NCBI GenBank assembly: GCA_937936275.1
Contig: CALHCJ010000255.1
Coordinates: 1 to 35,413, forward strand
Source: an uncultured Flavobacteriaceae bacterium
Lineage (GTDB): Bacteria > Bacteroidota > Bacteroidia > Flavobacteriales > Flavobacteriaceae
Direction: 5' to 3'
Length of the DNA: 35,413 nucleotides
The notes beneath the pieces are model-generated. The model searched no databases. It was given only the letters and a program-made list of their open reading frames with translations, and had not been told where the DNA came from. The position numbers and the translations under genes are program-made. Positions 707 through 12,087 of this stretch are shown piece by piece. Positions within the stretch are counted from its first letter, which is position 1, and each line of letters begins with the position of its first letter.

Positions 707-972
707 GTTGCATTGGTTCATTATTACTCTCTAAGAAATTACGATTACCTCTACCTTTTAAATCTGAGATAGGCTACAAATTATCGGTAAAAGAAAGGGT
801 CCAGAAAGCGTTCATTTGAAGGGTATTTCCTGCCAAATATCATTTTTTACAACGTTCACAACAAAAAACCATCACTTGACAACAATAATTTAGAATTACG
901 GCAGAATGCCCCTAAGTTTACTATGTAATAAAAAACGAATTAAATTTTTTCATTTTCATATAGTGTTCTCGT
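707..972. other. Intergenic stretch without a recognisable gene
   Basis: I find no convincing coding frame here. The only start-to-stop frame near the terminator is 22 codons at 906-974 and has no supporting feature. The region ends in the hairpin at 973-1005. It may be an untranslated 3' region of the hydrolase transcript or eroded sequence. Confidence 0.5.
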
Positions 973-1005
973 AAAAGAGCTCAATCGTAAAGATTGAGCT
1001 CTTTT
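973..1005. terminator. Two-way intrinsic terminator
   Basis: A perfect 14-bp inverted repeat (973-986 with 992-1005) encloses a 5-nt loop, GTAAA. The stem core is GAGCTCAATC, with A-runs at the 5' base and T-runs at the 3' base. Because A- and T-runs flank both sides it can end transcripts on both strands: the hydrolase from the left and menB from the right. Confidence 0.88.
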
Positions 1006-1142
1006 TAGTTCAAAGCGATTTTATTTTGTTTCTATTTCCTAAGCAATCTTTTCAGTTAATGATCATTGAAACAGTGATTATGTATAGTTTTAGCTTGTAC
1101 CTCCGTATAAGATGAGCTGGTAACTGCCCACTGCTACTTAAT

Positions 1143-9227: not shown

Positions 9228-10091
9228 ATGAGGCAACTAAAAATCATCAAGCAAGTAACCAATAGAGAGTCCAAATCATTAGACAAATACTTGCAAGATA
9301 TTAGTAAGATTGATTTAATAAACGCAGCCGAAGAGGTAGAATTAGCACAGCGCATTCGCACCGGTGATCAATGGGCTCTTGAAAAACTAACTACCGCTAA
9401 CCTACGTTTTGTAGTATCCGTAGCAAAGCAATATCAAAATCAAGGATTAAAATTACCAGATTTAATTAATGAAGGAAACTTGGGGCTTGTTAAAGCTGCT
9501 AAAAGATTTGACGAAACAAGAGGGTTTAAATTTATTTCTTACGCCGTATGGTGGATTCGTCAGTCGATACTACAGGCATTAGCAGAACAATCAAGAGTGG
9601 TACGTTTACCACTTAACAAGATAGGTTCCATTAATAAAATAAAGAAGACTTTTTCATATTTAGAGCAAGCACACGAACGCCCGCCATCTGCAGAGGAAAT
9701 AGCCAAAGAGTTAGAAATGACGGTAAGTGAAGTAAAGCAATCGATGAAAAACTCTGGACGACATGTCTCAATGGATGCGCCTTTACGAGAAGGAGAAGAT
9801 TCGAACTTGTATGATGTATTGCGGTCAGGCGAATCACCACGACCAGATAAAGACTTAATGCAGCAGTCACTGAATACAGAAATTGTTCGTGCTTTAGAAA
9901 CTTTATCGCCACGTGAAGCAGATGTCGTAAAATTATATTATGGCATTGGTGATCAACAGTCTATGACTTTGGCTGAAATTGGACAGACTTTTGATTTGAC
10001 GAGAGAACGCGTGCGTCAGATTCGAGAAAAGGCAATTCGTAAATTACGTCACAATTCTAGAAGTAAATTGTTGAAGACATACTTGGGATAG
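9228..10091 (+). CDS. rpoD: Primary RNA polymerase sigma factor (sigma-70, Bacteroidota type)
   Basis: This 287-residue sigma-70 factor has region 1.2 ([27 protein letters not shown]), region 2 with [37 protein letters not shown] and [17 protein letters not shown], region 3, and region 4 ending in the helix-turn-helix [28 protein letters not shown]. It lacks the long acidic region 1.1 of the E. coli protein, as usual for the Bacteroidota primary sigma, which recognises the unusual -33/-7 promoters of this phylum. It starts at the ATG at 9228 and ends 21 bp before a strong terminator. Confidence 0.95.
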
Positions 10092-10111: not shown

Positions 10112-10151
10112 AAAAAAAGCACCTTGAAGTTTACTTCGAGGTGCTTTTTTT
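10112..10151. terminator. Two-way intrinsic terminator after rpoD
   Basis: A 12-bp stem (10119-10130 with 10133-10144, one G-T wobble, effective tetraloop TTTA) is flanked by seven As on the left and eight Ts on the right. It ends rpoD on the plus strand. Read on the minus strand it has an equally good T-run and lies 24 nt past the stop of the last small reading frame at 10169, so it can also end a transcript arriving from the polysaccharide locus. Confidence 0.9.
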
Positions 10152-10168: not shown

Positions 10169-10270
10169 TTAAGAATAATTCAATTTATTAATTTCAGAAT
10201 CTGTCAAAATTTCATTCAAGGTTTCAATGAAATTCATGTAAGCTGCATTGTCGGAATTTTGATTTGCCAT
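10169..10270 (-). CDS. Microprotein A, 33 residues, paralogue of microprotein B
   Basis: A 33-codon frame from ATG (10270) to TAA. The peptide has an Asn-rich start (MANQNSDNAA), then the core YMNFIETLNEIL and the end EINKLNYS; net charge is about -4. Over 24 aligned residues it shares 10 identities with microprotein B, plus several conservative changes, and both end two residues after a conserved L-[ND]-Y. Six of the ten identical residues use different synonymous codons, which argues for selection on the peptide. The sequence AAACCTAG precedes the ATG by 5 nt and is also found before B. It is 31 nt downstream of B and just before the terminator at 10112-10151. No signal peptide, membrane segment, cysteine or double-glycine leader is visible. 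Function unknown. Confidence 0.62.
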   Translation of the reverse strand: MANQNSDNAAYMNFIETLNEILTDSEINKLNYS

Positions 10271-10301
10271 AACTACTAGGTTTTTTAAGAACACTGAACG
10301 A

Positions 10302-10400
10302 CTACATATAGTCTAATTCGGTTAGTTCGTTTACACTTAAGATTTCGTTTAATTCTTGGAGGAAACTTAAATATTCCTCCCCGTAGGTGTCGTACAACAT
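10302..10400 (-). CDS. Microprotein B, 32 residues, paralogue of microprotein A
   Basis: A 32-codon frame from ATG (10400) to TAG. The core YLSFLQELNEIL aligns with YMNFIETLNEIL of microprotein A, and the tails NELTELDYM and SEINKLNYS also align. It is strongly acidic (six Glu, two Asp, no Lys or Arg) and its hydrophobic residues (Y, L, F, L, L, I, L) are spaced as in an amphipathic helix. The shared LNEIL is encoded with four of five codons differing silently from those in A. AAACCTAG lies 7 nt before the start. It is too short for standard gene callers. It could be a small regulator or subunit, possibly of the polysaccharide machinery encoded upstream; that is inference from position only. 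Confidence 0.65.
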   Translation of the reverse strand: MLYDTYGEEYLSFLQELNEILSVNELTELDYM

Positions 10401-10460
10401 GGTAATGCTAGGTTTAGTTTATTACTTGATTTGGGTTCAATAATTATACTACTAACTTAT

Positions 10461-10553
10461 CTATAACGTGAGATCGAAACAATTAATTGTGGTGTAGTTA
10501 TTAAATTTTGTTGTGAAATCGATGAATGACTTAGTGAAGGTTTCTTGACTCAT
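10461..10553 (-). CDS. Possible microprotein C, 30 residues
   Basis: A 30-codon frame from ATG (10553) to TAG, in line with B and A and of the same size, 60 nt upstream of B and 76 nt past the YaiO-type gene. The peptide begins MSQETFTKSF and carries FIDFTTKFNNY, which can be laid against YMNFIETLNEI with matching positions for the aromatic, the F four residues on and the following [LF]-N. The tail differs, it is not acidic like the other two, and AAACCTAG is absent. The resemblance is weak and could be chance. If real, it makes the set a triplet. Confidence 0.35.
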   Translation of the reverse strand: MSQETFTKSFIDFTTKFNNYTTINCFDLTL

Positions 10554-10629: not shown

Positions 10630-12087
10630 TTAGAACCTTACTTGTGCCGTAATACCAGCAGATACGGCCCAATAGAAGTTATCTGAGTCGAAGAATAATT
10701 CTTGCCTTAAAACTCCCAGGTTAGCGCGATAGCTGTTTGAATTTACCCATCCTGTGAATTGGTACTCGAACTGCAGTTGTTGTGATTCTACATAGAGTAA
10801 AGTTTCTGCGATCAACTCATCACCAAAACGCAATTGTCTCAGTTCAGGTAGAAAGCCCATTCCGGCACGGAGTCCCAAATAGTTGTTTGCGTCCTTAAGA
10901 TACTTACGTGCTAAAATCTCGCCAGAAGCGCCTAAGTCTCCGTTCGGATTTGGTGTGACGTATGGTCGTAAGGAAAAATAATAGTTGCCAGAATATAACC
11001 CAAAAGAACCAGTATAAATGATAGCATTCGCATCAGCGAAGTCTAAATAACGGAAACCTGCAGAGGCTTCATACTTTTTAGCGAAGTTGGCATACAACTC
11101 TCCTCCTACTCTATGGTCAGGAAATATTGGCGAACTAGAGTAGCCGTAATTAAGGTAACCATAAAAGGTTTTTGAAAATTTAGGATAAAAATCAACCTCG
11201 TATTGAATACCATGCGTTTGAAACCGGTTGGCATAATTGATTCTTGGTATTATAGAACCTGCTTTAGTTTCTCTTTTGTACTCAATACTTGTATAAATCA
11301 TCGGGTCAAAAACCTTGTCGAAAACATCAAACGTGTTTGAAATAGTAACCTGATTATTTTTGGTTTTTTCTTCTTCCTTAACTTCTTTTTCTGGTAGTTC
11401 TACGCCATCCAGATCATCCTTGCCGTGTTGTTGGTTGATTTTCATGCTTGCATAAGCTTTCATGACCTTTAGATCGTCATCATCCTTTAAGAAGCTAAGC
11501 GCTTTGTTCGCTAAACCTAAAGCGACATAATATTCTTCTGCGTTTATTTCATTTTTGATGGCTGAGATCCAAGCTTTTCTATTGCCACGATCTTTAGAAG
11601 TTATTCTATTGTAATATTTGCGAGTCTCCTCGACACTTTCAGTTTTTGCGTAAACTTGACTAGTGATTTCTGACTTCAATTGTAAAAGATCTTCATCTCC
11701 GTCTAAAAAAGATAAAGCTTTGTTGGTTAGACCTAAAGCAATGTAAAACTCTTTTGCGTATATCTCATTTTTAATAGCGGCAGTCCATACCTCCTTATTT
11801 TTCCTTTCTTCGGAGGTTATTCTGTTAAAATGTTTCCGGGCTTCGTCGTATTTGCCATCCCAGCTTAAGGTTTTAGCCAGTAAGCTACGTACATCGGTAT
11901 ATTCAGGATATTCAGTTAAAATATGATTTAAAGTGTCACGAGCAACGGTTCTATGACCAGCAAAAGCTAAGTCTCGAGCCGTAAAAAATGAAGTGTCAGG
12001 ATTACCCGAATAGGCCAAGTCTTGTCCGTTAACTGACCAACCCAGCACGAGCATCATGAATGAAAGTAAGATTTTTTGTAATCTCAT
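10630..12087 (-). CDS. YaiO-family outer-membrane beta-barrel with periplasmic TPR head
   Basis: A signal peptide (MRLQKILLSFMMLVLGWSVNGQ) is followed by a helical repeat region (about residues 30-215), an acidic linker (about 220-245) and a beta-barrel of alternating strands (about 246-485) ending in Phe (TAQVRF), the usual outer-membrane insertion signal. The layout matches the YaiO outer-membrane family, which in E. coli sits beside a GT2 polysaccharide synthase, and it parallels TPR-barrel exporters such as PgaA and BcsC. Residues 84-143 and 155-214 are a clear tandem duplication (NRITSEERKN and NRITSKDRGN; ALGLTNKALSFL and ALGLANKALSFL). Its ATG overlaps the stop of the preceding gene by 4 nt (ATGA). 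Likely role: exit channel or outer-membrane anchor for the glycan made by the upstream synthase. Confidence 0.82.
   Translation of the reverse strand: MRLQKILLSFMMLVLGWSVNGQDLAYSGNPDTSFFTARDLAFAGHRTVARDTLNHILTEYPEYTDVRSLLAKTLSWDGKYDEARKHFNRITSEERKNKEVWTAAIKNEIYAKEFYIALGLTNKALSFLDGDEDLLQLKSEITSQVYAKTESVEETRKYYNRITSKDRGNRKAWISAIKNEINAEEYYVALGLANKALSFLKDDDDLKVMKAYASMKINQQHGKDDLDGVELPEKEVKEEEKTKNNQVTISNTFDVFDKVFDPMIYTSIEYKRETKAGSIIPRINYANRFQTHGIQYEVDFYPKFSKTFYGYLNYGYSSSPIFPDHRVGGELYANFAKKYEASAGFRYLDFADANAIIYTGSFGLYSGNYYFSLRPYVTPNPNGDLGASGEILARKYLKDANNYLGLRAGMGFLPELRQLRFGDELIAETLLYVESQQLQFEYQFTGWVNSNSYRANLGVLRQELFFDSDNFYWAVSAGITAQVRF

Follow-up and report, generated by a model that had tools for sequence, protein, structure and literature searches.

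A conserved pair of microproteins in marine Flavobacteriaceae as candidate outputs of a LytTR-type regulatory circuit

Introduction

What are two frames of little more than thirty codons doing between a gene for a YaiO family beta-barrel protein and rpoD? They lie on the minus strand of contig CALHCJ010000255.1 (NCBI GenBank assembly GCA_937936275.1), from an uncultured Flavobacteriaceae bacterium; the whole stretch analyzed, 35,413 nucleotides (nt) long, is referred to here as the window. An earlier note on this DNA had described the frames as a pair of paralogous microproteins of an undescribed family, 32 (microA) and 33 (microB) amino acids (aa) long, and had suggested a link to the adjacent polysaccharide locus. 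Both frames have been found with the position, strand and length reported there (Table 1), and the family does appear undescribed, as neither peptide matches Pfam (E 0.01) or NCBIfam (E 1). The explanation that best accounts for the observations as a whole, all of them computational, to which we give a probability of about 0.7, is that the two genes (microAB) are outputs of an undescribed LytTR circuit, are expressed as a bicistronic unit, and encode peptides that bind one partner protein. The literature searched, most subscription papers lying outside its scope, held no account of a regulon with this LytTR site or of the microA and microB peptides.

Conservation of the two peptides

Selection on the frames has been examined in a sample of 397 genomes of the family and in a separate scan of named genomes, two sets that overlap; some genomes are incomplete, and absence from a draft is therefore a weak indication. 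In microA, the median ratio of nonsynonymous to synonymous substitution rates (dN/dS) is 0.042 (108 distinct sequences, 1,380 unsaturated pairs), as against 0.66 (+1), 2.5 (+2), and 1.8 (reverse) in the control frames (5,777 pairs each); in the 23-codon core of microB it is 0.156 (99 sequences, 1,195 pairs). At the three codon positions, variability is 0.18/0.06/0.49 in microA, compared with 0.30/0.21/0.52 in the core of microB, and over the 25 nt ahead of microA it amounts to 0.62. The very low dN/dS, together with this codon-position pattern, indicates that both frames encode proteins, and on the aligned sequences microA and microB are real, protein-coding genes under selection. The homologue search with dN/dS that had been proposed as a check, with random frameshifts and stops as the outcome that would count against the peptides, thus found the frames kept in relatives and not broken at random.

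The conservation of microA is high for a protein of this size. Among 98 genomes searched, the query is matched at 91–100% identity in 12 of the 13 other genomes of the genus (the remaining one, G008, is 84% complete) and at 84–97% in one genome each of six other genera of the family, and 12 of its 32 positions are invariant among 54 distinct proteins; G034 carries a diverged copy with 42% identity. In a search of 59 genomes, microB turned up in these 12 genomes of the genus that match microA, as well as in G014, G024, and G031, always just after microA. A profile search of the 397 family genomes gave 79 with hits at E up to 0.02, of which 75 are counted. The sole hits of the other four are weak: those of G125, G195, and G379 have E above 0.007 and fall in frames of 213–526 aa, and that of G043 (E 0.009), which resembles a diverged microA, has been called chance because it is read in a different frame within a gene of 762 codons. 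In the named genomes, the scan yielded 245 places that encode relatives, and 80 of these were kept as named loci; their genera include Maribacter, Zobellia, Flagellimonas/Allomuricauda, Arenibacter, Euzebyella, Pseudozobellia, Croceitalea, Croceivirga, Ulvibacterium, Kriegella, Aurantibacter, and others. Wherever the sequence of a named locus continues past microA, as it does in 79, microB follows; in six named loci it has LKDML in place of LNEIL. Altogether 124 loci were gathered, or 113 after merging identical stretches.

The kinship of the two peptides has been assessed by comparing their family profiles, which hhalign matches along 24 columns (probability 95.5%, E 1.5e-8); by this comparison microA and microB are paralogues, their likeness being far beyond chance. 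The 10 identities counted earlier correspond to 10 of 23 positions in the ungapped cores and to 42% over the 24 positions of the search alignment, and six of these ten residues do use different codons in the two genes, as had been claimed. A profile search of solved structures returned one chance-level match (E 0.51). The earlier note had also pointed to a word, AAACCTAG, shared by both genes ahead of the ATG. It is present in the window 7 nt before microA and 5 nt before microB, and the first case conforms to a motif of the leaders, [AT]AACCTA, found in 24 of 95 microA leaders versus 3.1 in shuffles; the microB case does not extend to the family, AACCTA being present in 20 of 100 microA–microB spacers.

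Promoter and terminator of microAB

A second line of evidence is the region upstream of microA, in which neither a conserved promoter nor a regulon had been mentioned before. Word counts upstream of 95 non-redundant microA genes make TTCACAAC, CACCACA, ATGTTTAC, and CCCAAATC stand out. With the second repeat as anchor, 92 of these 95 upstream regions contain one ungapped block, in which TTYACAAC is followed 21 bp on by TWCACCACAATTTATTG, then by TTG (-33) and TAnGTTTAC (-7), the direct repeats reading TTCACAACA and TWCACCACA; it fails in L161 (G301), L165 (G108), and L058 (G034). LytTR-type (VirR/AgrA-like) promoters are marked by paired direct repeats about two helical turns apart that adjoin the -35/-33 element, a layout which the block shares, with a 21-bp period and a fixed register. 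The family -7 word also resembles TAnnTTTG, given as the sigma-A consensus of Flavobacterium psychrophilum in a study on that species (PMC9723704). A 30-aa frame at 10461–10553 coincides with the promoter block and was left out of consideration for that reason. Downstream of microB, a hairpin folds on both strands (-21.7 kcal/mol, z -7.55, on the minus strand; -24.2 kcal/mol, z -7.98, on the plus strand); it was not listed by a consensus terminator scan and is supported by folding. From these elements, microA and microB are predicted to form a short bicistronic unit with its own promoter and terminator.

Candidate regulon of the site

The same site occurs elsewhere in these genomes, the counts that follow being per pattern and not per promoter. 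Two early patterns hinted at a single target: a variable-spacing pattern matched in four of 12 genomes, at three microA promoters of the genus and one other place (G266), and the second repeat combined with the -33 and -7 elements gave a single match in 12 of 20 genomes, always at microA. This idea was abandoned, as fixed-spacing patterns gave many more matches than reversed controls, namely 293 versus 120 in 20 genomes with two mismatches allowed and, for TTYACMACA-N12-TWYACMACA with at most one mismatch, 65 versus 8 in five genomes. Among those of the 65 that were read, several classes can be distinguished. One lies between the gene for a regulator with Response_reg and LytTR domains (REC-LytTR) and the gene for the adjacent kinase, with TPR, HisKA_2, and HATPase_c domains; another lies between rpiB-like and RNase R-like genes, named by reading their translations; and others precede various genes.

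Another class precedes one to three tandem small RNA (sRNA)-like units located after a GTPase gene, which we take to be of hflX type (its Pfam domains were computed), at loci L340, L227, L229, L228, L239, L241, L248, L259, and L264; in L228 and L264 the GTPase gene itself lies outside the stretch. At 14 such sites, CCCAAA is found 92–93 nt from the start of the site in 10 and a CCTACTT-like word in 13, and the longest ATG frames of the units have 0–28 codons. The prediction of sRNA-like units relies on the promoter site together with a conserved core and a terminator. An sRNA-like unit is also proposed in the window itself, behind a second site with one mismatch, and ends in a strong hairpin (z -4.81). 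A shorter form of its core, TTTTTTCATTTTCATATAGTGTTCTCGTAAAAGAG, occurs in 36 distinct contexts (in L135, two of these overlap each other) in loci around microA or beside the regulator, and upstream of each the best site-like match scores 25–30 of 30, the lowest values overlapping the shuffle range of the microC test described below. Rfam, at gathering thresholds, gave no match in the window and, in seven loci, only Flavo-1 (RF01705; L239, 1166–1244), which sits immediately ahead of the hflX-side site, on the other strand and outside the unit.

Protein genes behind the site include a third microprotein, microC, of 33–35 aa (MEAQMNQ..RKLFML). It is found in 69 of the 397 genomes (E up to 0.01), all 69 of which carry the regulator and microA; four genomes with regulator and microA gave no microC match. 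In the best 30 of the 69 microC loci, a site scoring 27–30 of 30 lies upstream in 28, the best of 300 shuffles reaching 26; the remaining two, L311 and L324, score 25. Another candidate target is a 56-aa gene of the window's genome (L335, G000:C86), with the same frame start in G006 (L258), whose product matches DUF6747 (PF20532; E 8.8e-28). The shared site points to a possible regulator for this Pfam family of unknown function. At L331 (G000:C266), a receiver-like frame is followed by a PAS-domain gene, ahead of which three consecutive half-sites form two overlapping 21-bp pairs.

Of the 397 genomes, 82 have the regulator itself (E up to 1e-60), and 73 of the 75 microA genomes are among them. 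Its association with the site has been examined in 54 further genomes, outside the sets used for the 20-genome and five-genome counts. In the 23 with regulator and microA there are 288 sites versus 45 in the reversed control; in nine with the regulator and no detected microA, 52 versus 13; in 20 without the regulator, 16 versus 28; and in G034 and G301 together, one versus none. A clear excess of sites over the control is thus confined to the groups that have the regulator.

The leader of microA bears on the best-surviving alternative, namely that the transcript acts mainly as a regulatory RNA of the RNAIII type, with the peptides as by-product or second function. The leader words CCCAAATC and TAAACTAAACCTAG are motifs in common with the sRNA-like units, as are, in the family, CCCAAA (58 of 95 leaders versus 3.3 in shuffles) and TTAACC (36 of 95 versus 3.2), which is what such an RNA would lead one to expect. 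However, it is the amino acids that are conserved, as seen in the codon-position pattern and dN/dS given above, and a purely RNA role is therefore insufficient. A unit acting as RNA only is ruled out on that ground, and we consider a mainly RNA function unlikely.

Predicted form of the peptides

Both peptides are modeled by AlphaFold as single helices, with mean predicted local distance difference test values of 76 (microA) and 82 (microB) and predicted template modeling scores of about 0.4. Their net charges are -8 and -4, and microA has eight acidic residues and no basic one. On a helical wheel of microA, nine of the 12 invariant residues (Y3, Y6, G7, Y10, F13, L14, N18, L21, and N24) fall at 120–260 degrees, a face that also holds the near-invariant L17, and the variable positions 12, 16, 23, and 27 fall at 20–80 degrees; position 32 is variable, yet lies on the conserved side. 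Since most of the invariant residues occupy one helix face, the peptides are proposed to bind and modulate one partner protein, and these acidic, leaderless peptides may be cytosolic single helices.

A second alternative concerns the site of action. AgrA, itself a LytTR regulator, directly controls the phenol-soluble modulins, and microA and microB might likewise be secreted, surfactant-like amphipathic helices acting outside the cell. They are small, leaderless, helical in the models, negatively charged, and a paralogous pair behind a LytTR-type site, all of which is compatible with this idea. On the other hand, the amphipathic moment is moderate, and the invariant Tyr3, Tyr6, Gly7, Asn18, and Asn24, together with the dN/dS of microA, favor a specific binding face over a generic surfactant, and a surfactant role is considered unlikely. 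A hydrophobic, membrane-active type I toxin, which would have a membrane-spanning segment, has been rejected, considering the charge of microA and a mean hydrophobicity of 0.12 in its 18-mer of highest moment.

Neighboring genes

In the window, genes for a histidine kinase, a response regulator, a HEAT-like protein, a GT2 glycosyltransferase, a sulfatase/TPR protein, and YaiO are followed by microAB, which converges on rpoD. The earlier note had suggested a link between the peptides and this polysaccharide locus, of which they might be accessory subunits. In many genomes the full locus does stand beside microAB, and all 63 of the 397 genomes with GT2 at 70% identity or more also carry microA. 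Nevertheless, a close GT2 is missing from 12 of the 75 microA genomes, and a GT2 match from 36 of the 80 named loci, so that, L133 and L134 being cut by contig ends, 34 named loci keep microAB without GT2. Likewise, YaiO is not matched in 35 of the 80, one of which (L133) is cut by a contig end. In G011 (L052), of the same genus, everything from response regulator to YaiO is absent between the kinase gene (45% identity) and microAB, and this genome has no GT2 at E 1e-150. Moreover, microAB has its own promoter block, and microA lies at other places, away from rpoD, in G128 and G338 as well as in G034 and G301 (among 21 further loci). On these comparisons the suggested membership is largely refuted, and a role as accessory subunits of the locus is improbable.

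The composition of the locus varies in other ways. In six Flagellimonas/Allomuricauda-type loci (L090, L100, L103, L125, L155, and L158) the kinase has 255–291 aa, compared with 591 in the window, and the HEAT-like protein 117–130 aa, compared with 993, microAB being intact; the HEAT query matched only L125, L155, and L158 of the six. By reading, the shrunken kinase has kept its N-terminus and an Hpt-like C-terminus, the kinase core being gone. L151 and L138 keep a 594-aa kinase, with a HEAT-like protein of 587 or 408 aa, and at the Arenibacter amylolyticus locus (L113) there is no match to the kinase or HEAT query. A match to rpoD is present in 77 of the 80 named loci; the other three are L118, which ends just past microA, and L126 and L143, in which microAB has no rpoD match in 4.8 and 10 kb downstream. 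Neither microB nor rpoD lies beside microA in G128, G338, G034, G301, and G108; in G128, a hairpin-like GGACT/AGTCC repeat with a T run was read 3' of microA. Finally, control of a downstream gene by attenuation, with the peptides as leader peptides, is suggested by short frames ahead of a terminator and is very improbable, given that the next gene in the window, rpoD, is convergent, that the unit ends at a bidirectional terminator, and that both frames are conserved along their length.

Table 1. Features of the microAB region, of the second site in the window, and of microC
Feature	Position	Strand	Remarks
microA	10302..10400	-	32-aa microprotein MLYDTYGEEYLSFLQELNEILSVNELTELDYM; frame read, with relatives; median dN/dS 0.042
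microB	10169..10270	-	33-aa paralogue MANQNSDNAAYMNFIETLNEILTDSEINKLNYS; frame read, with relatives; core dN/dS 0.156
First direct repeat of proposed LytTR site, TTCACAACA	10509..10517	-	Family promoter alignment
Second direct repeat, TACACCACA	10488..10496	-	21 bp from first; family promoter alignment
Proposed -33 element, TTG	10480..10482	-	Position matrix of 92 loci
Proposed -7 element, TAAGTTAGT	10451..10459	-	Position matrix; family consensus TAnGTTTAC
Proposed 5' leader	10401..10450	-	Putative start site; contains CCCAAATC (10428-10435) and TAAACTAAACCTAG (10408-10421)
Bidirectional intrinsic terminator	10119..10151	-	Common to microAB and rpoD; folding
Second site of the same type	855..884	+	One mismatch; pattern match
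-7-like word, TAAGTTTAC	913-921	+	Follows second site
Proposed sRNA-like unit with terminator	925..1006	+	About 80 nt; putative ends
Core of proposed sRNA-like unit, TTTTTTCATTTTCATATAGTGTTCTCGTAAAAGAG	945-979	+	35 nt; conserved
microC in the window's genome	G000:C282:6259-6363		microC loci are L301-L330
rpoD	9228..10091	+	Convergent neighbor, context only; named by reading
YaiO family beta-barrel gene	10630..12087	-	Upstream neighbor, context only, outside the microAB unit; profile matches

The proposed circuit and its counterparts

We propose that the TPR-containing histidine kinase signals to the neighboring REC-LytTR response regulator, which would bind the two 9-bp direct repeats, 21 bp apart and just upstream of the -33 element, and activate transcription. 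The same switch would drive the sRNA-like units, microC, and the DUF6747 gene. Once expressed, microA and microB, as acidic, leaderless, cytosolic single helices, would bind and modulate one partner protein.

Several observations weigh against this proposal. The microA promoters of several of the 54 further genomes had entered the matrix of 95 upstream regions, so that the test is not fully independent, an overlap that can explain about one site per genome. Since regulator and microA occur in one clade, their co-occurrence is partly due to common descent, and the sites could be read by a different LytTR protein, as the regulator query brought up several more candidates in each genome. Individual genomes also depart from the rule: G034 and G301 have a diverged microA with neither a regulator match nor the promoter block, G108 has the regulator and failed the block criterion, and nine genomes have the regulator with microA not detected. 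CCCAAA is present in just 15 of 30 microC leaders. As for the peptides, the invariant M1, L2, and E9 of microA lie off the conserved face, its helix is just moderately amphipathic (hydrophobic moment 0.41, shuffle P 0.011), and that of microB is weaker (0.33, P 0.057). Common descent nevertheless leaves unexplained a clear excess of sites found only with the regulator, including in genomes without microA.

Comparable arrangements are found in Firmicutes. In Staphylococcus, AgrA controls RNAIII/hld, an RNA encoding a tiny peptide, and the small helical phenol-soluble modulins. The proposed microAB circuit resembles this regulon in its layout, with a LytTR regulator, candidate RNAs, and small, apparently helical peptides. 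The domain make-up of the AgrC kinase differs from that of a HisKA_2 and TPR kinase, and the kinase adjacent to the flavobacterial regulator, with TPR, HisKA_2, and HATPase_c domains, is not of the AgrC type. Another example is the VirR regulon of Clostridium perfringens (VirR boxes, VR-RNA, VirT, VirU), whose direct targets include regulatory RNAs and have paired repeats just upstream of -35 (PMC2838878). The likeness again lies in the layout, namely paired repeats upstream of -33/-35 and candidate RNAs among the targets, with regulator binding predicted in our case; unlike in VirR, the repeats and promoter are flavobacterial and several targets encode microproteins. The microAB circuit thus resembles the VirR and AgrA regulons and is not established as a member of either. 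Regarding DUF6747, its 56-aa member would belong to the same proposed regulon, and microA and microB had no match in the Pfam scan. Within the same bacterial family as the sRNA-like units, the sRNAs Rfp1–89, including Rfp18, have been mapped in F. psychrophilum, with TAnnTTTG promoters, in a study the main text of which contains no occurrence of LytTR or TTCAC (PMC9723704).

A broader formulation seems to us about evenly balanced between right and wrong, namely that a marine clade of Flavobacteriaceae has an undescribed VirR/AgrA-type circuit, leading from a TPR histidine kinase to a REC-LytTR regulator, whose outputs are mostly tandem sRNAs and microproteins (microA, microB, microC, and DUF6747), microAB being near-invariant helical adaptors that pass its signal on to one partner. 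A 32-residue protein that is 84–100% identical across seven genera is unusual, and such short genes are easily overlooked. The shared promoter gives these peptides a testable regulator, together with co-regulated candidate RNAs and microproteins, and suggests that regulator–sRNA circuits of the Firmicutes type may have a counterpart in Bacteroidota.
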